This document shows, piece after piece, positions 51,436 to 63,864 of a DNA stretch of 64,000 nucleotides. Position numbers and translations under genes: made by a program. Under the pieces are notes generated by a model. It saw only the letters and a program-made list of their open reading frames with translations. It was not told the DNA's origin and made no database searches. Where the stretch lies: contig JAUIGV010000013.1 in assembly GCA_030432565.1 (NCBI GenBank), forward strand, positions 62,001 through 126,000. The letters are read 5' to 3'. Within the stretch, counting starts at the first letter, position 1, and each line of letters opens with the position of its first letter. The stretch comes from Verrucomicrobiia bacterium (GTDB lineage: Bacteria; Verrucomicrobiota; Verrucomicrobiia; Verrucomicrobiales; Akkermansiaceae).

Positions 51436-53499
51436 ATGAAATTCCTCCTCCCCCTCATTGTCACCATTCCAGTGGTTTTCGCGAAGCCGCTGCCCCTGGA
51501 CGTGGTGCGCAATACCGCCCGCGAGATCGACGAGCTCCTGCACGCCGGCCAAGAGGCCCGAAGCATCAAGGCAAATCCCATCACCGATGATTCCACCTTC
51601 GTTCGCCGGAGCTACCTGAACATCATCGGACGCCTTCCGACTCACGACGAAGCCCGCTCCTTCCTGGAATCAAGCGATCAAGAAAAGCGAACCAAGCTTA
51701 TCGACTCCTTGGTCGAATCTCCCGGCTTCAACTCCCGACTCTTCAACTTCTGGACCGACCTCCTTCGCGTCCAAACCAACAACGAACACAATGGACTGGG
51801 TTGGCACGTCTGGTTGAAGGATGCCGTCGAGAACAACATGCCCTACGACAAGATGGTCACGGAAATGCTCGCGGCCGACGGCCACGCTGCCGAAAATCCT
51901 GCCGTGGGATACTACCTGCGTGATCGTGGCATGCTCCTCGATAACGTCAGTAATACCGTCCAGGTTTTCCTCGGCCAGCAAATCGGCTGCGCCCAGTGCC
52001 ACGACCACCCCTTCGACGACACCACCCAAATGGAGTATTACCAATTGGCGGCTTTCCTGGGAGGCACCGACTACCGCTTCGAGGGTGGCCGGGAAAAAAT
52101 CAAGGAAGCGATCGGGTTCGATCCCGATAAACGGCCCAAAAAAGCCTTTAAGAACATGACCAAAGAAGAGCGACGGAGATTCGCCCTCCAGGCAAAAAAA
52201 GCGAGGGAAAAGGCCATGTCCAAGCGTGAGGAAGCCCGCGCCATCGGTCAGGTCTTCCGCTACCACAACCGCAACGCCCTCGCCGACAACACCAGCAAGG
52301 AACTCAAACTACCCGCCGACTATCAATATGAAGATGGAAAACCGGGCGACGTGGTCAAGCCCGGATTCCTCTTCGGACTTGATGCCAAGGACGTGAAACC
52401 CGGGCAGCGGCGCGAATACTTCGCCAAGTGGGTCACTTCTCCCAAAAATCCCTACTTCACCAAGGTCATCGCCAACCGCATGTGGGAGTATGCCTTCGGC
52501 TACGGCCTCGTCGCCAACCCCGACGACTGGAACAATTCGCCCCAGCCCCACTACCCTGAGCTCGTCAACTATGTCGAAAAAGCGATGCTCGCGGCCAACT
52601 ATGACCTCCGGCAGTTCCTGCGCATCCTTTATCACACCAATCTTTTCCAACGGGAAGTCAGCACCGAGGAGCCCGCCCAAGGGTTCTCCTTCGACTTCCA
52701 GGGACCGATTCTCCGCCGGATGAGCGCCGAGGAAATTCGGGATTCATTCATCACTCTCGCATCCGGCAATGTCGACTCCAACACCAACAACAGCTTCGAA
52801 GAAGCGTGGGATGATTATGTAAAAGCCTTCGACTTCCTCATGAGCACCAACAGCAAGCAACTGAAGGAAATCAGCACCGTTGTTATCGAAGGCGAGAAAC
52901 AACGCCGGGCGCTCCAAAAGGAAGTCTCCATCCTCCGCACCAAAGCCCAGAAGGCACGAGAAAATGGTAACATGGCCGCCTTCCGGGAAGTCTCCGCTGA
53001 AATCAGATCCGTCCAGAAAAAATACGGGAAGGGCTACAGCAAAGGAAGAGGCATGAGCGAAAACAGCGTGACGACCAAAGCAGCCCCGGCCCTTGCCCGT
53101 CGTGCCCGCACCGGCCGCCCCGACGAGCCCGAGTTCCGCATGCGGGCCTCCGAACTTCCCGTTCCCGCAAGAGGTGGCACCTTCCTCGCCGAATTCGGCG
53201 GATCGGATGCCGAAAGCCCGTCTTCCGCTCACACCGAAGCCACCGTTCCGCAAACCCTGCGCCTTCTAAACGGGCTTGAGACCAGCCTTCTCACCAATAA
53301 GAAGAATTCTTTTGCCCGCTCGCTCCGTGCCATTGAATCACCTTCCAGAAGACTCGATTTTCTCTTTCTCAGCCTCTACTCCGCCTTCCCAACCGAAGAC
53401 GAGAAAGAAGCCTTCCTCCCCGAAATGAAAACCCCGGAGTCCACCGAGACATTCGCCCGGGCCATCCTCACCTCCAACCGTTTCCTCTTTGTCCAATGA
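51436..53499 (+). CDS. Secreted DUF1549/DUF1553 protein with cytochrome-type CxxCH site
   Basis: A protein of 687 residues with a signal peptide (MKFLLPLIVTIPVVFA). The DUF1549 domain (PSCyt2, about 15-215) has DDSTFVRRSYLNIIGRLPTH and the haem-type CAQCH at 185-189. The DUF1553 domain (PSD1, about 310 onward) starts FAKWVTSPKNPYFTKVIANR and MWEYAFGYGLVANPDDWNNS. A long charged insert (about 475-600; RALQKEVSILRTKAQKAREN) separates the two halves of DUF1553. It has no separate PSCyt1 domain, unlike the gene at 60021. Its stop overlaps the DUF1501 start codon (ATGA), so the two are coupled. Function unknown; presumed extracytoplasmic redox. Confidence 0.92.
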   Translation: MKFLLPLIVTIPVVFAKPLPLDVVRNTAREIDELLHAGQEARSIKANPITDDSTFVRRSYLNIIGRLPTHDEARSFLESSDQEKRTKLIDSLVESPGFNSRLFNFWTDLLRVQTNNEHNGLGWHVWLKDAVENNMPYDKMVTEMLAADGHAAENPAVGYYLRDRGMLLDNVSNTVQVFLGQQIGCAQCHDHPFDDTTQMEYYQLAAFLGGTDYRFEGGREKIKEAIGFDPDKRPKKAFKNMTKEERRRFALQAKKAREKAMSKREEARAIGQVFRYHNRNALADNTSKELKLPADYQYEDGKPGDVVKPGFLFGLDAKDVKPGQRREYFAKWVTSPKNPYFTKVIANRMWEYAFGYGLVANPDDWNNSPQPHYPELVNYVEKAMLAANYDLRQFLRILYHTNLFQREVSTEEPAQGFSFDFQGPILRRMSAEEIRDSFITLASGNVDSNTNNSFEEAWDDYVKAFDFLMSTNSKQLKEISTVVIEGEKQRRALQKEVSILRTKAQKARENGNMAAFREVSAEIRSVQKKYGKGYSKGRGMSENSVTTKAAPALARRARTGRPDEPEFRMRASELPVPARGGTFLAEFGGSDAESPSSAHTEATVPQTLRLLNGLETSLLTNKKNSFARSLRAIESPSRRLDFLFLSLYSAFPTEDEKEAFLPEMKTPESTETFARAILTSNRFLFVQ

Positions 53500-54809
53500 A
53501 CCCCTTTAATCAACTCGACGACCAATCACGCCGGAGCTTTCTGGCCAGCACCGCCCGCACCGCCTTCGGCGTGACCCTTGGCGGCGCTTCCGCTTCCTGG
53601 TTCTCCTCCGCAGAAGCGGCCGAAGCCATCAAAAAATCCAACGGTAAGGCCAAGAACGTCATCTACCTCTACATGGCAGGCGGCATGACTCACATCGACA
53701 CCTTTGACCCCAAGCCCGAGGCGCCCTCCGAGTACCGCGGCCCCATCAAAGCAATTTCGACAAAAGTAGATGGCATCCAGCTCGGCCAGCACTTCGAACG
53801 CACCGCGAAGCACACCGACAAGATGGCCATCGTTCGCTCCATGACCTCGACCCAGGGGGCTCACGCCCAGGGCAACTACCACATCCACACGTCCTACACC
53901 CAGCGGGCCTCGATCACCCACCCCTCACTCGGTTCGTGGGCCAACAAGCTTGATGCAGATCGGCTTAAGGGAACCCTCCCTCCTTACGTTACCGTTCACA
54001 GCGGCAACAACCATCCCGGGGCAGGATTCTTCGAGCCCAACGTGGCGCCTCTTCCCGTGGGTGATGCCGAAAAGGGACTCCAGAATTCCAGACGCCGCAG
54101 CAACGTTTCGGAGTCAGCCTTTAACCGCCAAATCGCTCTCCGCTCGAAGCTTGATGCCGACTTTGGTTCGCGCTTCAAAAAGGGACAGCGCAGCGTTCGC
54201 GCTTACGATGAGATGTTCAGCTCCGCGGTCAGCCTGATGCAGTCCAAGGACCTCGAAGCCTTTGATCTCTCCAAGGAATCCAAAGACGCCCATGCAGCCT
54301 ACGGAACCGATAAGTTCGGCAAAGGAGTTTTGCTCGCACGACGTCTTGTCGAACACGGAGTCCGCTTTGTTGAAGTGCAACTCGGTGGCTTCGACTGGCA
54401 CTCCGATAACTTCACCAAGGCCGACGAGAAACTTCCCATCCTCGATCAAGCCTACGCCGCCCTTCTTTCCGATCTCGAGCAACGTGGACTTCTCGAAAGC
54501 ACTCTTGTTGTCATCGCCACCGAGTTCGGCCGGACCCCGAAGATCGACGATGACGCCGGACGAAACCACTTCCCGAAAGCCTTCTCCTTTGCTCTCGCCG
54601 GAGCCGGCATCAAAGGGGGAACCGTTTACGGCGAGACCGACAAAACAGCCTCCAACGTCATCACGGAAAAGACCACCGCGTCCGACTTCAACGCCACCAT
54701 TGCCGCCGCCATGGGATTGCAATACGACCAGGTCGTCTTCTCTCCCACCAAGCGCCCTTTCAAGATGGGAGGAAAAACCGGCAAACCCATCACCGAAATC
54801 CTCGCCTAA
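53496..54809 (+). CDS. DUF1501 protein with Tat-type signal
   Basis: A protein of 437 residues. The N-terminus SRRSFLASTARTAFGVTLGG is a twin-arginine export signal. DUF1501 features follow: VIYLYMAGGMTHIDTFDPKP, VRSMTSTQGAHAQGNYHIHT, FVEVQLGGFDWHSDNFTKAD and VVIATEFGRTPKIDDDAGRN, then a GGTVYGETDKTASNV segment. The fold is of the alkaline phosphatase/sulfatase type. The gene overlaps the DUF1553 gene at ATGA; both are exported, one through Sec and one through Tat, and are expected to work together. A strong terminator follows. Confidence 0.92.
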   Translation: MNPFNQLDDQSRRSFLASTARTAFGVTLGGASASWFSSAEAAEAIKKSNGKAKNVIYLYMAGGMTHIDTFDPKPEAPSEYRGPIKAISTKVDGIQLGQHFERTAKHTDKMAIVRSMTSTQGAHAQGNYHIHTSYTQRASITHPSLGSWANKLDADRLKGTLPPYVTVHSGNNHPGAGFFEPNVAPLPVGDAEKGLQNSRRRSNVSESAFNRQIALRSKLDADFGSRFKKGQRSVRAYDEMFSSAVSLMQSKDLEAFDLSKESKDAHAAYGTDKFGKGVLLARRLVEHGVRFVEVQLGGFDWHSDNFTKADEKLPILDQAYAALLSDLEQRGLLESTLVVIATEFGRTPKIDDDAGRNHFPKAFSFALAGAGIKGGTVYGETDKTASNVITEKTTASDFNATIAAAMGLQYDQVVFSPTKRPFKMGGKTGKPITEILA

Positions 54810-55412: not shown

Positions 55413-57845
55413 ATGCCCGCTAACTTCAAAGGACGAGGGATCACCTGTTTCCAGCATAAACTTGCAAACTTGATGCAGGGACTTGGGGCGGGAATTCTGC
55501 TGGCACTGGCCGTGATTGCTTGCTCGGAGGAAAAACCGGCTCAAAAACAGGAAGTCTCCACCGATCAGCGAATCAAAGAGATGATTGCCACCGAGGAACT
55601 GTTGCAAAAACTGACCCCGAAGCTGCGCAGCCTGGGAGCTTCGATGATCAGCGGTTCCGTCGAGGATCTGCCGGGATCGGTGACCGGTAAAGCTGGTGTC
55701 CCACCGTGGAAAGGGCTCGATCCGTCCCACCGGTGGACCAGTGCTTCCTTCGGAACTCTCAAAGCCTCCTTCGAAAACAATGACTTCAAGATGAAGACAA
55801 AATTTGACGGAATACGCCGGGGGAAGGACGGAACGATCGTAGGGGTGACAGCCAAGCAAAGATTGATTTGGAGGAAAAGTGATGAGACGGAGGTTGGCTG
55901 GAAGCTCGTGAAATGGGAACCGCTTGAGTTTGAGACCGATGAGTCTCCCCAACCACTTTTTGAGGAAGTTCTCGATCGGGTGATCGCCGACCCCGCTGCT
56001 TTGGCGAAGGCCAGGACGTCCTTTCAAGAGGAAGTTCTCCGCAAAACCTTTGCGGGCCAAACCGCAAGCGTCGGACGTTTTAATGTGACCTCGTCTCCCG
56101 ATATCGAGAGTACCGTGCAATATCCAACGGTCAGTGTGATGGACTTCGACAGCGATGGTCACGAGGACTTTTTCCTTTCGGCGCGGTGGGTCCCGCCACA
56201 ATTGTTCAGAAACCTTGGCAACGGAACTTACGAGGAAGTGGCAGCCCGGTCGGGTATCACCGTCGACGGACATGTCACATGCGCTGTCTTTGCAGATTTT
56301 GATAACGATGGTGATCCCGATGCTCTTTTGGGACGGAGCTTCGAGCCAACCGTATACTATCGCAACGACGCAGGTCGCTTTACCGATGTCACCGCAACCG
56401 CAACAGATTTGGGAAATCTCCTGGTCGTATCCAGCATGGCTGTCGCCGACGTCAATCGAGACGGACTCCTCGACGTTTATTTGTCGACCTATAACACCCC
56501 GATTGCCCGTGTCCAGGACATCAACCCCGGAATCCTGAGCCCCGCACAGCTGAAAAAATTTGTTCACTACCTCCGGACTGATAGCGCGCCTTTCCTCAAT
56601 GAACGTGGTTTTCCTAACGTCCTTTTAATGAATCGGGGAGGGGGTCGTCTCGAACGGGCGGGAGGCGACGTCGTTGAACTCTATCGCAAGAGTTATCAAC
56701 CGCTTTGGTTTGATGCCGATAACGACGGTGATGAAGATCTCTACGTCTGCAACGACTTTGGGCCGGACAGCTATTTGCGCAATGACACTCCTCCGGGAGC
56801 AAGTGATCCGGTTTTAGTAGAGGCCTTTGCCAAGGTGTTTCCCGACGGGAAGATGTCCTATGGGATGGGCGCTTCCTGTGGAGATTTTGACAATGACGGC
56901 GATCTGGATCTCTTTGTCACAAATATGTATTCGAAAGCCGGCAACCGCATTGTTCCGGCAATCGGGAACAGCGATCCACGTATCATCACGTCCGCACGAG
57001 GAAATTTTCTTTACCGAAACGATGGGGGGATCTTCCGGCTGATTAGCGAGGAGGATGCACCGGAAACCAAAGTCGGCTGGGCCTTCGGGGGCCAGTTTGC
57101 GGACTTCAATAATGACGGATGGTTGGACCTTTACGTTCCAAGCGGTTTATACACCGCACCCCGTGAGGTGGCAACCGAGGTTGACTTGTGAGCATGCTTC
57201 TGGAGTACGGTCGTGCTCAAAGACCAGACTCGGAGCAGCGAGTTTCAAAAGTCTCCCTACTGGAAATCTCCCCTCCTTGATTTCCAACTACGGGTGCCGG
57301 AAGGAGTTCCGGGAAACAGTCGGGCCGCCAAAAGCAATTCGCTCAGCGGAAACGAGCGAAACCGGCTCCTTATGGGTGGACAGGACGGATTCGTAGGACG
57401 AACCCTCGTGAGCGGCGCTGACTGCAAAGAAGACGCCCGCTCCTTTGCACTCCTCGATTTTGATCAGGACGGCTGGGTTGATATCGCCCTGGCAAGCTGC
57501 AACGGACCTCGCCTCCGCTTCTTTCGAAATCGCTTTGGAGAACTCGGTGCATTGGGAAGTGTCGTGGAGGTCATCCTGCGCGGCAGCCATGCCGGAGCGA
57601 CTCCTTCATCAGGTCAGAGCAATCGTGACGGCGTGGGAGCAATTGTCACCGCCGCCACAAACCAACGGATCCGCGCCTTCCGGAAATCAATTGGGGAAGG
57701 CCTGGCCGCCCAGAATTCATCCCGGATTCGAGTTACCCTCGCCCCCGGAGAAATACTCAAGCAGTTGGAGGTCCGCTGGCCTTCCGGGAAAGTTTCCAGC
57801 TTAAAACCCTCTCCTGACGAATCTCTGATACGCATCAACGAGTAA
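55413..57845 (+). CDS. Probable selenoprotein: FG-GAP/VCBS lipoprotein with UnbV/ASPIC domain, in-frame UGA at codon 593
   Basis: A frame of 811 codons interrupted only by TGA at 57189-57191. It has a signal peptide and good lipobox VIAC (Cys37; the real start may be ATG 55473). A helical region (about 45-200) is followed by FG-GAP/VCBS repeats (about 215-600), such as VMDFDSDGHEDFFLSARW and VADVNRDGLLDVYLSTYN. The sequence goes REVATEVDL-UGA-ACFWSTVVLKDQTRS, then another repeat (FALLDFDQDGWVDIALASCN) and a UnbV/ASPIC domain (about 710-805; DGVGAIVTAATNQRIRAFRK). Without readthrough the last repeat and UnbV domain would be lost. The residue pattern U-A-C, two apart, could be a redox pair. A SECIS-type hairpin follows the UGA. 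The alternative is a new nonsense mutation. Confidence 0.8.
57189..57227 (+). promoter_or_regulatory. In-frame UGA and candidate bacterial SECIS hairpin (FG-GAP/UnbV gene)
   Basis: After UGA 57189-57191, GAGUAC (57203-57208) pairs with GUGCUC (57213-57218) as six base pairs with one G-U. The loop is GGUC (57209-57212), starting 18 nt after the UGA. A lower helix CUG/CAG (57200-57202 with 57225-57227) extends the hairpin across a six-base bulge (AAAGAC). A GGUC loop at this distance is the arrangement I recall from E. coli fdhF. Confidence 0.7.
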
Positions 57846-58023: not shown

Positions 58024-58737
58024 ATGAAATTAAACCAAAAAAATAAGCTGGCGACAGCCAGTTTCTCGGTACTGGCAAGTCTCGGTCTCTCCGCGACGTC
58101 AAACGGCGCCCTGATCCTTGGCACCACCATTGAAAGTGCTACAACGGGTCTCAATCCTGCGATGGCGCCGGAAAATGCCATTAACGGCAGTGGTCTTCCT
58201 GACAATGTGCCGGCTTTAACCGGATCCCATGGCAATTCATTTGACACAAACTGGTGGACCGGGTGGGACGGTAACGTCACCGAGTGGCAACTCACGGTGG
58301 ATCTGGAAGGTAATTATGATCTCGATACAGTGCAAATTTGGAACTACCGGGAAGGCTGCTGCTCCGGTCGTGGTTTGAGTTCCGTCGAGATCTATGTGTC
58401 TTCTGTTGAGGACGAACTCAGTCTCATCAAGCTTTCAACCAACGGATCAGGCACTCATGACGACGGCTTGGGCAACTTCCTTTTACCACAAGCACCAGCG
58501 GCCGGTGATTACTTCGGTTTCAACCTCGACTTGTCCGGGGTGACAGACCCCAGCCTTTTGGACAACGTCCGCCTTTTCCGCATTGATGGCGGAACTGACT
58601 TGTGGGGTGACGGGCAAATCCACGCTGGTTTGGCAGAAATCCAGTTCGGAGGGGTGGACGCCATTCCAGAACCTGCGACCACTGGACTGCTCCTCTTCGG
58701 CGTTTTGGGTCTCATGGTCCGTCGCCGCAAAGCCTAG
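58024..58737 (+). CDS. Discoidin-like PEP-CTERM protein
   Basis: A protein of 237 residues with a signal peptide (LATASFSVLASLGLSATSNG). The body (about 30-205) is an F5/8-type/discoidin-like jelly roll: NWWTGWDGNVTEWQLTVDLE, TVQIWNYREGCCSGRGLSSV and LLDNVRLFRIDGGTDLWGDG. The C-terminus IPEPATTGLLLFGVLGLMVR plus a basic tail is a PEP-CTERM sorting signal. It is a tandem paralogue of the next gene, which has the same domain but another C-terminal module. Such domains bind glycans or lipids at the cell surface. A terminator lies after it. Confidence 0.88.
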   Translation: MKLNQKNKLATASFSVLASLGLSATSNGALILGTTIESATTGLNPAMAPENAINGSGLPDNVPALTGSHGNSFDTNWWTGWDGNVTEWQLTVDLEGNYDLDTVQIWNYREGCCSGRGLSSVEIYVSSVEDELSLIKLSTNGSGTHDDGLGNFLLPQAPAAGDYFGFNLDLSGVTDPSLLDNVRLFRIDGGTDLWGDGQIHAGLAEIQFGGVDAIPEPATTGLLLFGVLGLMVRRRKA

Positions 58738-58771
58738 AAAGGCAGGAACTCAGAACAAATTTATTTCGAGA

Positions 58772-58802
58772 ACCGCTCGTCGAATGGCGGGCGGTTTTTT
58801 TT
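58772..58802 (+). terminator. Terminator between the two discoidin-like genes
   Basis: ACCGC-TCG / CGG-GCGGT with inner G-U pairs around TCGAATG, followed by eight T. It lies 34 bp after the stop of the first paralogue. Confidence 0.85.
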
Positions 58803-58904
58803 GCTAGGGCAGAATGCACGGCATTCTCCCCTAAAAGCGCCTTTGAAATCTACCGTCAGATTGACGGTCTTTCCTACGAACCCTAATCCAAAAACAACTT
58901 CACC

Positions 58905-59756
58905 ATGAAAATTAAGCCCCTCCTTGCAATCCTTTTGTCAACAACCGCTCTCGCCAGCGGTGATCTAATTACCGGACTCACCGTTGAAAGTGCTACAACG
59001 GGTCTTAACCCCGAGATGGGTCCGGAAAAAGCCATTAACGGCTTTGGATTGGACGGAGATGTCCCCTCTCTCACCAGCTCCCATCGTGAGCAATTTAGCT
59101 CAAACTGGTGGTCCGGTTGGTCCGGAGACGTCACTGAGTGGCAGATCACCATCGATTTGGGTGCCAATTACGATCTGACTGAAACACACATTTGGAATTA
59201 CCGCGAGAATTGTTGCGCCGGTCGGGGACTCAGCAGCGTCGAAATCTACGTCTCACCTGATGAAAATGAGGACAATCTCGTCAAACTCATCACCGACGGT
59301 ACGGGCGAACATGACAACGACGACGGGGGATTTTCGTTTCCACAGGCACCAACAGGTGGTGATTACCTCGGTTTCGACCTCGATGTCTCCAGCGTGACCA
59401 ATGCTGCCTTGCTGGACAACGTGCGCCTGTTTCGTATCGATGGCGGCTCATCCCTCCACGGAGGCGGCCAAGTTCATGGTGGCCTTGCTGAAATTCAGTT
59501 TGACGGTGTCCCCGCTTCTGTTGGCCCGGAAGATCTGGCCTTTGAGATCATCCCGCTTGGAGACACCCTCACCTTCAGCTGGGCAGGGAAGGACGGCAGG
59601 CTCTATGATCTCGTCAGCTCGACCAACCTGTCCACTCCTCCCGGGGAATGGTCTATCTACGAGGGCAACAGCAACATCGTCGGATCTATTCTCACAGAGG
59701 TCCCTTTCGACGGAAACACGCGCTTCTTCGCTCTGATCGAAAAAAATGCACAATAG
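58905..59756 (+). CDS. Discoidin-like protein with a non-PEP C-terminal module
   Basis: A protein of 283 residues with a signal peptide (MKIKPLLAILLSTTALASG). The central discoidin-like domain (about 22-205; NWWSGWSGDVTEWQITIDLG, THIWNYRENCCAGRGLSSVE, LLDNVRLFRIDGGSSLHGGG) is highly similar to the previous gene's. The last 75 residues, FEIIPLGDTLTFSWAGKDGR to TEVPFDGNTRFFALIEKNAQ, form the C-terminal module also seen in the proteins at 3130 and 9172. So the same binding domain is sorted by two different C-terminal modules in adjacent genes. The linker GVPASVGPEDLA replaces the IPEP helix. Confidence 0.88.
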   Translation: MKIKPLLAILLSTTALASGDLITGLTVESATTGLNPEMGPEKAINGFGLDGDVPSLTSSHREQFSSNWWSGWSGDVTEWQITIDLGANYDLTETHIWNYRENCCAGRGLSSVEIYVSPDENEDNLVKLITDGTGEHDNDDGGFSFPQAPTGGDYLGFDLDVSSVTNAALLDNVRLFRIDGGSSLHGGGQVHGGLAEIQFDGVPASVGPEDLAFEIIPLGDTLTFSWAGKDGRLYDLVSSTNLSTPPGEWSIYEGNSNIVGSILTEVPFDGNTRFFALIEKNAQ

Positions 59757-60020: not shown

Positions 60021-62399
60021 ATGCTAGAACGTGTCTTAACTGGCCTCCTAACCGTTGCTCTCCTTCCGGCAGCTGAAATCTCTTTCAATCAGGACATCCG
60101 TCCCATCCTCTCCGCCAAATGCATCGTGTGCCACGGTCCCGATGATGGCGTTGACGCCAAGGGCAAACCCAACCGCAAAGCCGGACTCCGCCTCGACACC
60201 CCCGAAGGCGCCTACGCCGAAAAAGATGGCATCGCCGCCATCGTCCCCAACTCCCTCGAAGACTCCGAAGCCTGGATCCGCATCACCGACAAGGATGACC
60301 CGATGCCTCCCGCCGACGGACACGCCAAACCCCTCACTTCAGGAGAAAAAGAACTCCTCAAAAAGTGGATTCAAGAAGGTGCCGAATACGAAGACTTTTG
60401 GGCCTTCGTTCCTGCTAAGAAACAACAAGCTCCTGCCGTCGAAAATAAAGCGTGGCCCCAATCAGAAATCGATCAATTCGTCCTCGCCAAAATCGAAGCC
60501 AAGGGCAAGTCACCCAAGGAAAAGGCCGACAAGCGCACTCTCATCCGCCGACTCGCCCTCGACCTCACCGGACTCCCGCCCACCCTCGAGGAAATCGAGC
60601 AATTCCTCGCCGACACCTCGCCCGACGCTTACCAAAAACTCGTCGAACGCTTCATCGCAAAGCCCGCTTACGGCGAGCACATGGCGAAATACTGGCTCGA
60701 TCTCGTCCGCGTTGCCGACACCAACGGCAACCACCACGATCACTTTCGCGACCATTCCCCTTACCGCGACTGGGTCATTGAGGCTTTCAACAAAAACCTC
60801 CCTTACGATGAGTTCACCAAATACCAAATTGCGGGCGATCTTTACGAAAACCCTACCCGGGAACAACTCATCGCCTCGGGCTTCAATCGACTCCACCTCA
60901 TCATCGATCGTGGCACGGCCCTCCCGGAGGAATCTCATTTCAAAAACGTAGTCGACCGCGTCTCTGCCGTCGGCACAGCCTTCATGGGCCTCACCATGGG
61001 CTGCGCCGTCTGCCACGACCACAAGTACGACCCCATCACCCAGAAGGATTTCTTCCAAATGTATGCCTTCTTTAACAACTTCGACGGAGCCCCCGAAACC
61101 GGCGGTCGTGGCGGTCCCGACTTCTATCGCGGCCTCCAACCACCCTACCTCGATCTTCCAACAGAAGAGCAGAAGGCAAAGCTCGACGACTTCGATCGCC
61201 AAATAAAAGCAAACCAAGACCGGGTCACTGACCTCAAAAAACAACAAGCCGCGCCCGCGCCACCGGCCGGCCCGGACGGTACTCCCCAACCCAAACCTGA
61301 TTTCAAACCCCAGATCGCCCAAGCCGAAAAGCAACTTGCCGATCTCAAAAAACAACGCTCAAACTACCTCCATCAGGTCCGCGGAGCCATGGTCATGCGC
61401 GAGCGACCCGAGCCCAAAAAGACCCACATCCGCGTTCGGGGCAACTACGACCAAATCGGCGCTGAAGTCACCCGCGACACCCCGCACTTCCTTCCACCCC
61501 TCAAAAAGTCCGGTGAGGTCGCCAGCCGCATGGACCTTGCCAACTGGCTCGTCGAAAAAGAAAACCCCCTCACCGCCCGCGTCGCCGTCAACCGTTTCTG
61601 GCAGCAATTCTTCGGCACCGGACTTGTGAAAACCTCCGAAGACTTTGGAGCCCAAGGGATGTGGCCCAGCCACCCCAAACTTCTCGACTACCTCACCCTC
61701 AAATTCATCGAATCAGGTTGGGACGTTAAGAAACTCGTTAAAGACATCGTCCTCACTCAAACCTATCAACAATCCTCCGCCGCTTCATCAGTCGACTTTG
61801 ACACCGATCCCGAAAACCGCCTCCTCGCCCGCGGCTCCCGCACCCGGCTTGACTCGGAAGTCATCCGCGACCAACTCCTCGCCGTGACCGGCGTCCTCAA
61901 CCGCGAAATGGGCGGACGTTCTGTCAAAACCCCACAACCCGCCGGGATTTGGAAAATGGTCGCTCTTCCCTCATCGTATCCAAATTCCTTCACCCCTGAT
62001 CCCGCCCCCGCCGACAAACGCCGCTCCATTTACACCTTCTGGAAACGTGGCCTCGCCCCACCGCAGATGACTATCTTCGATGCCCCCAGTCGCGACGCCT
62101 GCATCGCCCGACGCGAACGCACCAATACCCCCCTTCAAGCCCTTCTTCTCATGAACGAGCCCGAGTATTTTAAAGCGGCCGCCCACAAAGCCCAAACCCT
62201 CATGGCCGAGGAAGGAACGGAGGACGAAAAATTGATCCGACTTCACGAAACCGTCACCGCCCACAAGCCAACCGGGACCACCCTCAAACTCCTCAAAGAC
62301 GGCCTTACCACCTTCCGGGAAGACGGCGACGACCACTTCGCCTGGACCATGATCGTCCACACCCTCCTCAACCAGGACAGCTTCAAAAACAAGCAGTAG
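60021..62399 (+). CDS. Secreted PSCyt1 + DUF1549 + DUF1553 protein
   Basis: A protein of 792 residues with a signal peptide (MLERVLTGLLTVALLPA). The cytochrome c-type PSCyt1 domain at about 22-115 has CIVCH at 34-38 and Met in KDDPMPPADGH as a likely second axial ligand. DUF1549 (about 145-345) has TLIRRLALDLTGLPPTLEEI and a second CAVCH. A Lys/Pro-rich coiled linker lies at about 385-460. DUF1553 (about 495-750) includes WLVEKENPLTARVAVNRFWQ, FFGTGLVKTSEDFGAQGMWP and APSRDACIARRERTNTPLQA. The DUF1501 partner starts 46 bp downstream. It is the full-length version of the gene at 51436, which lacks PSCyt1. Function unknown but redox-related. Confidence 0.93.
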   Translation: MLERVLTGLLTVALLPAAEISFNQDIRPILSAKCIVCHGPDDGVDAKGKPNRKAGLRLDTPEGAYAEKDGIAAIVPNSLEDSEAWIRITDKDDPMPPADGHAKPLTSGEKELLKKWIQEGAEYEDFWAFVPAKKQQAPAVENKAWPQSEIDQFVLAKIEAKGKSPKEKADKRTLIRRLALDLTGLPPTLEEIEQFLADTSPDAYQKLVERFIAKPAYGEHMAKYWLDLVRVADTNGNHHDHFRDHSPYRDWVIEAFNKNLPYDEFTKYQIAGDLYENPTREQLIASGFNRLHLIIDRGTALPEESHFKNVVDRVSAVGTAFMGLTMGCAVCHDHKYDPITQKDFFQMYAFFNNFDGAPETGGRGGPDFYRGLQPPYLDLPTEEQKAKLDDFDRQIKANQDRVTDLKKQQAAPAPPAGPDGTPQPKPDFKPQIAQAEKQLADLKKQRSNYLHQVRGAMVMRERPEPKKTHIRVRGNYDQIGAEVTRDTPHFLPPLKKSGEVASRMDLANWLVEKENPLTARVAVNRFWQQFFGTGLVKTSEDFGAQGMWPSHPKLLDYLTLKFIESGWDVKKLVKDIVLTQTYQQSSAASSVDFDTDPENRLLARGSRTRLDSEVIRDQLLAVTGVLNREMGGRSVKTPQPAGIWKMVALPSSYPNSFTPDPAPADKRRSIYTFWKRGLAPPQMTIFDAPSRDACIARRERTNTPLQALLLMNEPEYFKAAAHKAQTLMAEEGTEDEKLIRLHETVTAHKPTGTTLKLLKDGLTTFREDGDDHFAWTMIVHTLLNQDSFKNKQ

Positions 62400-62445
62400 C
62401 TCAGGCCTCCCGCCGACCAAGCTTAAGACTTCACCCTTAAACCCC

Positions 62446-63864
<1,419 letters not shown>

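Follow-up and report, generated by a model that had tools for sequence, protein, structure and literature searches.

A probable selenocysteine-containing family among the FG-GAP/UnbV (CRTAC1-like) beta-propeller proteins of bacteria

The window analysed here, a stretch of 64,000 nucleotides from a member of the Akkermansiaceae (Verrucomicrobiota), carries on its forward strand a gene (55413..57845) for an FG-GAP/UnbV protein of 810 residues, whose single in-frame UGA is, on comparative evidence, almost certainly read as selenocysteine (Sec). A new selenoprotein family among the FG-GAP/UnbV (CRTAC1-like) proteins, as suggested by the original prediction, is the best reading of the data, since the conservation of the UGA column, the selenocysteine machinery and the hairpin downstream of the UGA agree on it. 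The full model, in which an exported propeller selenoprotein is decoded by means of SelB and the hairpin and its Sec is resolved either by a fused CxxC domain or by the cysteine of a U-x-C motif, is considered highly likely.

Gene and predicted protein

The reading frame bears out the description of a lone UGA (57189..57191, the sole TGA, proposed Sec593 of 810 residues) in an otherwise open and complete frame, and the UnbV domain indeed lies beyond the UGA in the same frame. Pfam places UnbV_ASPIC at residues 740-800 (57630..57812; E 4.4e-06, 26.9 bits, cut-off 23.4), and both this domain and the FG-GAP repeats exceed their gathering scores in the read-through protein. All features of the gene are on the forward strand. 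The protein begins with a putative lipoprotein signal (55413..55523) that ends in LALAVIAC, a stretch up to Cys37 which we take to be lipobox-like. The Cys37 column holds Cys in 10 of the 11 alignment rows having a letter there, and this conservation is consistent with an exported lipoprotein; the gene product would be exported and probably lipid-anchored. The signal is followed by an N-terminal domain of helices and beta-sheet according to the AlphaFold2 secondary structure (approximately residues 50-215, 55560..56057), in which Pfam found no match, and by a beta-propeller with FG-GAP repeats (approximately residues 240-706, 56130..57530; Pfam FG-GAP_3 and FG-GAP, and the AlphaFold2 model). 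The model, computed with Cys substituted for Sec, has a pLDDT of 85.0 and a pTM of 0.86. In it, residue 593 is the second residue of a helix (592-602) that comes after a loop behind a propeller strand; the CRTAC1-like beta-propeller would bear its Sec near the start of this helix, ahead of the last FG-GAP repeat. Cys595 (57195..57197), at U+2, completes a U-A-C motif and is the proposed resolving residue. The protein ends after UnbV, and has this U-x-C motif instead of a C-terminal thioredoxin-like CxxC domain.

A CRTAC1-like propeller fold was found for the predicted model with both Foldseek and VIA. Murine CRTAC1, which combines FG-GAP repeats with UnbV/ASPIC (PDB 9etn), is the best match among solved folds (Foldseek E 3.8e-23). 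VIA aligned it to residues 180-810 of the model with a Z of 34.5 and 20% identity over 455 residues, the next chain reaching 26.2; the N-terminal domain before residue 180 lies outside the fold match. When the family profile was run on PDB sequences, CRTAC1 alone gave a match at E up to 0.001 (E 6e-20), in alignments whose displayed stretches miss the Sec helix. CRTAC1 is not known to contain Sec.

Gene pairs of the DUF1549/DUF1553 and DUF1501 types are present on both sides of the selenoprotein gene (51436-54809 and 60021-63864). They do not form a general operon with it: only 4 of the 80 homologous loci contain relatives of the adjacent DUF1553 or DUF1501 genes, two of these loci a DUF1501 relative, though many loci are too short for neighbours to be seen. 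Downstream, at 58024-59756, two proteins with weak galactose-binding-like domains are encoded, one of them with a PEP-CTERM motif; relatives of both are found side by side in locus L047. A plasmid search returned 95 records that match in part, none of them across more than 80% of the query.

Conservation of the UGA column

The genome of origin contains 23 matches to the protein, 8 of which (the window gene and seven others, L011-L017) cover the query through to its UnbV end. Each of these has exactly one TGA, in the same column in 8 of 8; the remaining 15 are weaker FG-GAP matches with no stop. Among GTDB genomes 420 loci were confirmed, and of the best 80 of these, 72 have TGA at the column. 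As to the eight others, L051 and L054 end short of the column, L077 has Asn and L090 Glu in the same motif, and L100, L105, L106 and L107 were assigned by eye to other FG-GAP subfamilies, as were the weaker matches of the genome of origin. The loci with UGA come from four phyla (Verrucomicrobiota, Planctomycetota, Acidobacteriota and Myxococcota/Deltaproteobacteria) and a few unplaced bacteria, and the motif D-x-U-x-x-x-W is invariant across 33 diverse UGA rows. Differences between the window gene and L033 at codon positions 1/2/3 number 62/47/136 after the UGA and 111/79/287 before it, a distribution of the same shape; against L047 they number 28/23/113 after the UGA. These comparisons indicate that the coding sequence is conserved before as well as after the in-frame UGA.

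The UGA has a negligible probability of being a recent nonsense mutation, the mark of a pseudogene or an error of assembly. Faults do occur in some loci, such as a frameshift in L056 (which has TGA at the column all the same) and an extra stop in L240, but the explanation is refuted by the sharing of one UGA column by the 72 loci and by all eight own-genome copies, and coding-type substitution continues downstream of the UGA. At L240:4032 the UGA at the column is followed by the further stop 21 codons on, which marks either a decayed copy or an assembly error.

It is very improbable, too, that the UGA is a true stop which leaves a functional 592-residue product and a second protein started at GTG 57213, by a split gene or by termination-reinitiation. 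A GGAG (57202-57205) is located just upstream of this in-frame GTG, and 57213-57845 appears in the mechanical listing of open reading frames. Yet the seven codons from the UGA to the GTG encode conserved residues, including the Trp that is invariant in the 33 rows; in the closest group four of them vary, three synonymously and one between Ala and Ser. Their conservation as protein argues against a split gene. GGAG is missing from many relatives, which have TGGCG instead, a single domain order is kept across the phyla, and the UGA is associated with SelB.

SECIS-like hairpin

A hairpin of six pairs (GAGUAC-GGUC-GUGCUC, 57203..57218) was located as predicted, with the GGUC loop (57209-57212) starting 18 nt past the UGA. 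One of its pairs is U-G, and is C-G in close relatives. The additional lower helix that had been proposed was not recovered, the isolated fold of 57180-57245 giving a minimum-energy structure that differs from the hairpin (z -1.57; 15 of 200 shuffles fold as well). Rfam reported no SECIS family, either in the whole window at the gathering score or in 57150-57300 at a relaxed threshold. Since the hairpin of the window is not the minimum fold and has no Rfam match, the support for it is comparative.

In this respect, a stem of at least six pairs near the expected place is found at 78 of 98 distinct UGA sites. At the 83 of these sites with upstream codon pools the mean stem is 6.16 bp, versus 3.85 after synonymous codon shuffling, and exceeds the means of all 100 shuffle sets (highest 4.36). 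The 14 non-UGA relatives, two of them identical, show a stem of 6 pairs in 1 and of 5 in 4. The apical-loop G of a SECIS hairpin is represented by a G at nucleotide 19 past the UGA in 97 of the 98 sites; the loop has 4 nt at 54 sites, 5 nt at 31 and 3 nt at 13. In the 5-nt class the third pair is formed by U-A, C-G, A-U, G-U and G-C, is paired at 31 of 31 sites and has one side at a third codon position. In the 4-nt class the second pair is broken at 14 of 54 sites. When partners were permuted in 2,000 trials the observed pairing was never reached in the 4-nt or the 5-nt class, a result that is supportive and not decisive, as the permutation ignores kinship and the loop classes were themselves picked by pairing. 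By these comparisons the hairpin is kept in the UGA forms beyond the demands of the protein, and most of the non-UGA relatives read have a short stem or none.

Selenocysteine machinery

The machinery for Sec, the absence of which would speak against the family, is present: SelA, SelB and SelD of the genome of origin each exceed the cut-off, and its tRNA-Sec exceeds the Rfam gathering score and was also called by ARAGORN. The selD gene (L245:1501-2430) has an in-frame UGA of its own in the motif ASCGGU-ASK. SelD is unrelated to the propeller protein; as a fellow UGA-containing gene it is a positive control, from whose sequence UGA decoding is judged to be in use in this genome.

SelB exceeds the cut-off in 41 of 44 UGA genomes (that of the window and those of 43 of the 72 UGA loci). 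It does not in the UGA genomes of L034, L062 and L070 or in G425 and G538, for which completeness is not given. SelB is present in 6 of 6 genomes of the loci L077, L090, L100, L105, L106 and L107, and in neither of two genomes picked for a Cys or Asp form. In the Acidobacteriota sample (197 genomes, with the column read in all 21 UGA genomes) SelB occurs in 20 of 21 UGA genomes versus 110 of 176 others, and in the Planctomycetota sample (195 genomes, at least 48 of them with UGA) in 47 of the UGA genomes versus 79 of 147 others (Fisher 0.0012 and 6e-10, respectively, both ignoring kinship). Twenty planctomycete regions retrieved as UGA forms, L240 (G546) among them, were checked at the column nucleotide by nucleotide. 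SelB is common regardless, being found in 130 of 197 Acidobacteriota and 126 of 195 Planctomycetota genomes sampled; in the Acidobacteriota sample a non-UGA form extends across the column in ten genomes, five of them with SelB. The genome counts for these two phyla and for Myxococcota were tallied by eye, and each sample contains its centre genome, which was chosen for UGA.

Decoding of the UGA as Trp or Cys, whether through suppression or an altered genetic code, can be given only a marginal probability. The residues at the column vary in the non-Sec relatives, so that the column alone names no residue; against such a decoding stand the complete Sec machinery, the association with SelB, and a GGUC-type hairpin that has SECIS-like spacing and exceeds the demands of the protein.

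Residues replacing selenocysteine

Twenty-six non-UGA relatives, being those retrieved, were read at the column (second matches in L205 and L206, with His, were treated as another family). They have Glu (6), Ala (5), Asn (4), Ser (3), Asp (3), Cys (2), Gly (1), Arg (1) and Gln (1). Both Cys forms (L114 and L128) come from one Verrucomicrobiota genome, G286, in which SelB does not exceed the cut-off. The proposed check of whether the column holds Cys or Sec has a different outcome: the column holds Sec or, for the most part, a residue without redox activity, with Cys in only these 2 of the 26. As far as the sequences go, the rarity of Cys weakens a simple Sec/Cys pair and does not refute Sec. 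According to its authors, deep-Sep may misidentify selenoproteins that lack Cys homologues (PMC12013277). The scarcity of Cys counterparts may plausibly be why the family was missed by Cys-based screens.

Redox partners

Two forms of the Sec protein are distinguished by length, "short" being fewer than 300 residues past the UGA. The region after Sec matches UnbV in 91 of 91 cases and AhpC-TSA in 62 of 91, and in many Sec forms UnbV is followed by a domain that matches AhpC-TSA or Redoxin. The closest solved relatives of the fused domain of L082 are ResA (4nmu, E 4.9e-15), TlpA and DsbE. These are extracytoplasmic thiol-disulfide oxidoreductases, with which nearly all long Sec forms have a CxxC in common, at one column of the C-terminal domain; unlike in those proteins, the domain is fused to a Sec-bearing propeller, and the window protein is without it. 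CxxC is present at one aligned column (MAFFT alignment, near-copies not thinned) in 77 of 79 long Sec forms versus 1 of 21 long non-Sec forms, the exceptions being the long Sec forms L061 and L067, without CxxC at the column, and the non-Sec form L212, which retains it. Cys at U+2 is found in 33 of 33 short Sec forms, including that of the window, and in 0 of 79 long ones; the fused domain is absent from the short Sec forms. These CxxC and U+2 counts exclude L240 and five sites truncated where their locus ends. Among non-Sec tails, 9 of 22 were recognised as AhpC-TSA and 12 have TPR repeats; in the other non-Sec tails the domain as a whole may have been lost, or have diverged, together with its CxxC.

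A rapid maximum-likelihood tree of 132 rows, from which the Sec column, U+2 and the fused domain had been removed, shows two changes of the U+2 Cys, three of Sec and seven of CxxC. Each comparison (Sec with CxxC, and U-x-C) can draw on two independent pairs; nearly all pairings go the expected way, in numbers too few for significance. The association of Sec with a redox partner appears striking in the sequences yet is statistically thin once kinship is counted. The idea that U-A-C is a redox pair gains from its complementarity with the fused CxxC domain and is held back by the few independent changes, two or three. A redox-active Sec, resolved by CxxC or U-x-C, is on the whole favoured, with moderate confidence.

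Short and long forms also occur together. A long form with Sec and CxxC meets a short U-x-C form tail to tail, their ends overlapping, in L037:6669-8387 (also L036, L040 and L041), and the two may be a functional pair; a short and a long form are on opposite strands in eight loci. Tandem short U-x-C forms on the same strand are seen in Pirellulaceae-type loci (L048:6491-9845; also L049, L052, L053 and L079).

The protein could be a selenoprotein in which Sec is a metal ligand or a structural group and the ResA-like domain does something else, a reading that is unlikely though it merits attention. It would fit the retention of FG-GAP and UnbV in relatives whose column residue is E, A, N, D or S, and the redox correlations are based on few independent changes. 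What speaks for the catalytic role instead is that CxxC is absent from 20 of the 21 long non-Sec forms and that U-x-C, with two changes on the tree, is confined to Sec forms without the fused domain.

Comparison with described selenoproteins

A 2026 catalogue comprises, by its own count, 119 bacterial selenoprotein families or subfamilies, and reports UxC and CxU motifs in other families; it describes characterised selenoproteins as mostly thioredoxin-like in fold (PMC13188914). The catalogued families have the UGA, the downstream hairpin and the Sel machinery in common with the propeller family. Compared by name, no row of Table 1 of that paper, which includes "hypothetical" rows, refers to CRTAC1, UnbV or FG-GAP, and the terms CRTAC, ASPIC, FG-GAP and VCBS are absent from its text. 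NCBIfam models, which cover many of the "hypothetical" rows of the catalogue, gave no match over the cut-off with three proteins of the family, and one domain below it. No report of a Sec family of the CRTAC1/UnbV type was found in the open literature; an earlier candidate may be contained in the candidate table S9 of a study of planctomycete selenoproteins (PMC4807772). The family terms had no match in PMC9312934, and no paper on UnbV with FG-GAP in Planctomycetes was found in the open literature. A CRTAC1 family gene was reported to adjoin hydrazine-synthase-like genes (PMC12758564).

Distribution

Within the host's own family, 47 of 195 genomes have a match, with up to 19 in G991 among the matches listed, each of which contains one TGA. 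Of 288 genomes from the Verrucomicrobiota as a whole, 14 match a longer profile, and a TGA is seen in the genome of the window only. In Myxococcota 16 of 188 genomes match, and 11 have a TGA inside a match that spans the column, as judged by match span and not base by base.

Proposed mechanism and implications

Decoding would follow the standard bacterial route, SelB with Sec-tRNA-Sec acting at the UGA as placed by the hairpin 18 nt downstream. Sec insertion of this kind is usual in bacteria; the family is set apart by the protein that carries Sec, by the number of its copies, by how seldom Cys counterparts occur and by the pattern of redox partners. The selenol of Sec is envisaged as the catalytic group of an extracytoplasmic oxidoreductase of the peroxide, disulfide or sulfoxide type. 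In the long forms Sec would be resolved after attack by the ResA/TlpA-like CxxC domain of the same chain; in the short forms, such as the window protein, it would be resolved by the cysteine of U-x-C, which a separate thioredoxin-like protein would then re-reduce. The balance tips slightly towards the broader view that few bacterial selenoprotein families are as expanded as this one, an extracytoplasmic propeller selenoenzyme to which a ResA-type reductase of its own is often fused, that its Sec is recycled by CxxC in cis or by U-x-C, that both redox centres disappear together where Sec is lost, and that it stayed hidden because Cys counterparts are nearly absent.

Proteins of the family are probably cut at the UGA by gene finders. 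If the reading is correct, the selenoproteome of bacteria would gain a multi-copy family, present in Planctomycetota, Verrucomicrobiota, Acidobacteriota and Myxococcota, in which Sec is carried by a beta-propeller and which may help to explain the retention of the Sec machinery in these bacteria. The alternation of fused CxxC and U-x-C would allow the role of Sec to be probed directly with mutants and would offer a first handle on the function of UnbV/CRTAC1 proteins.
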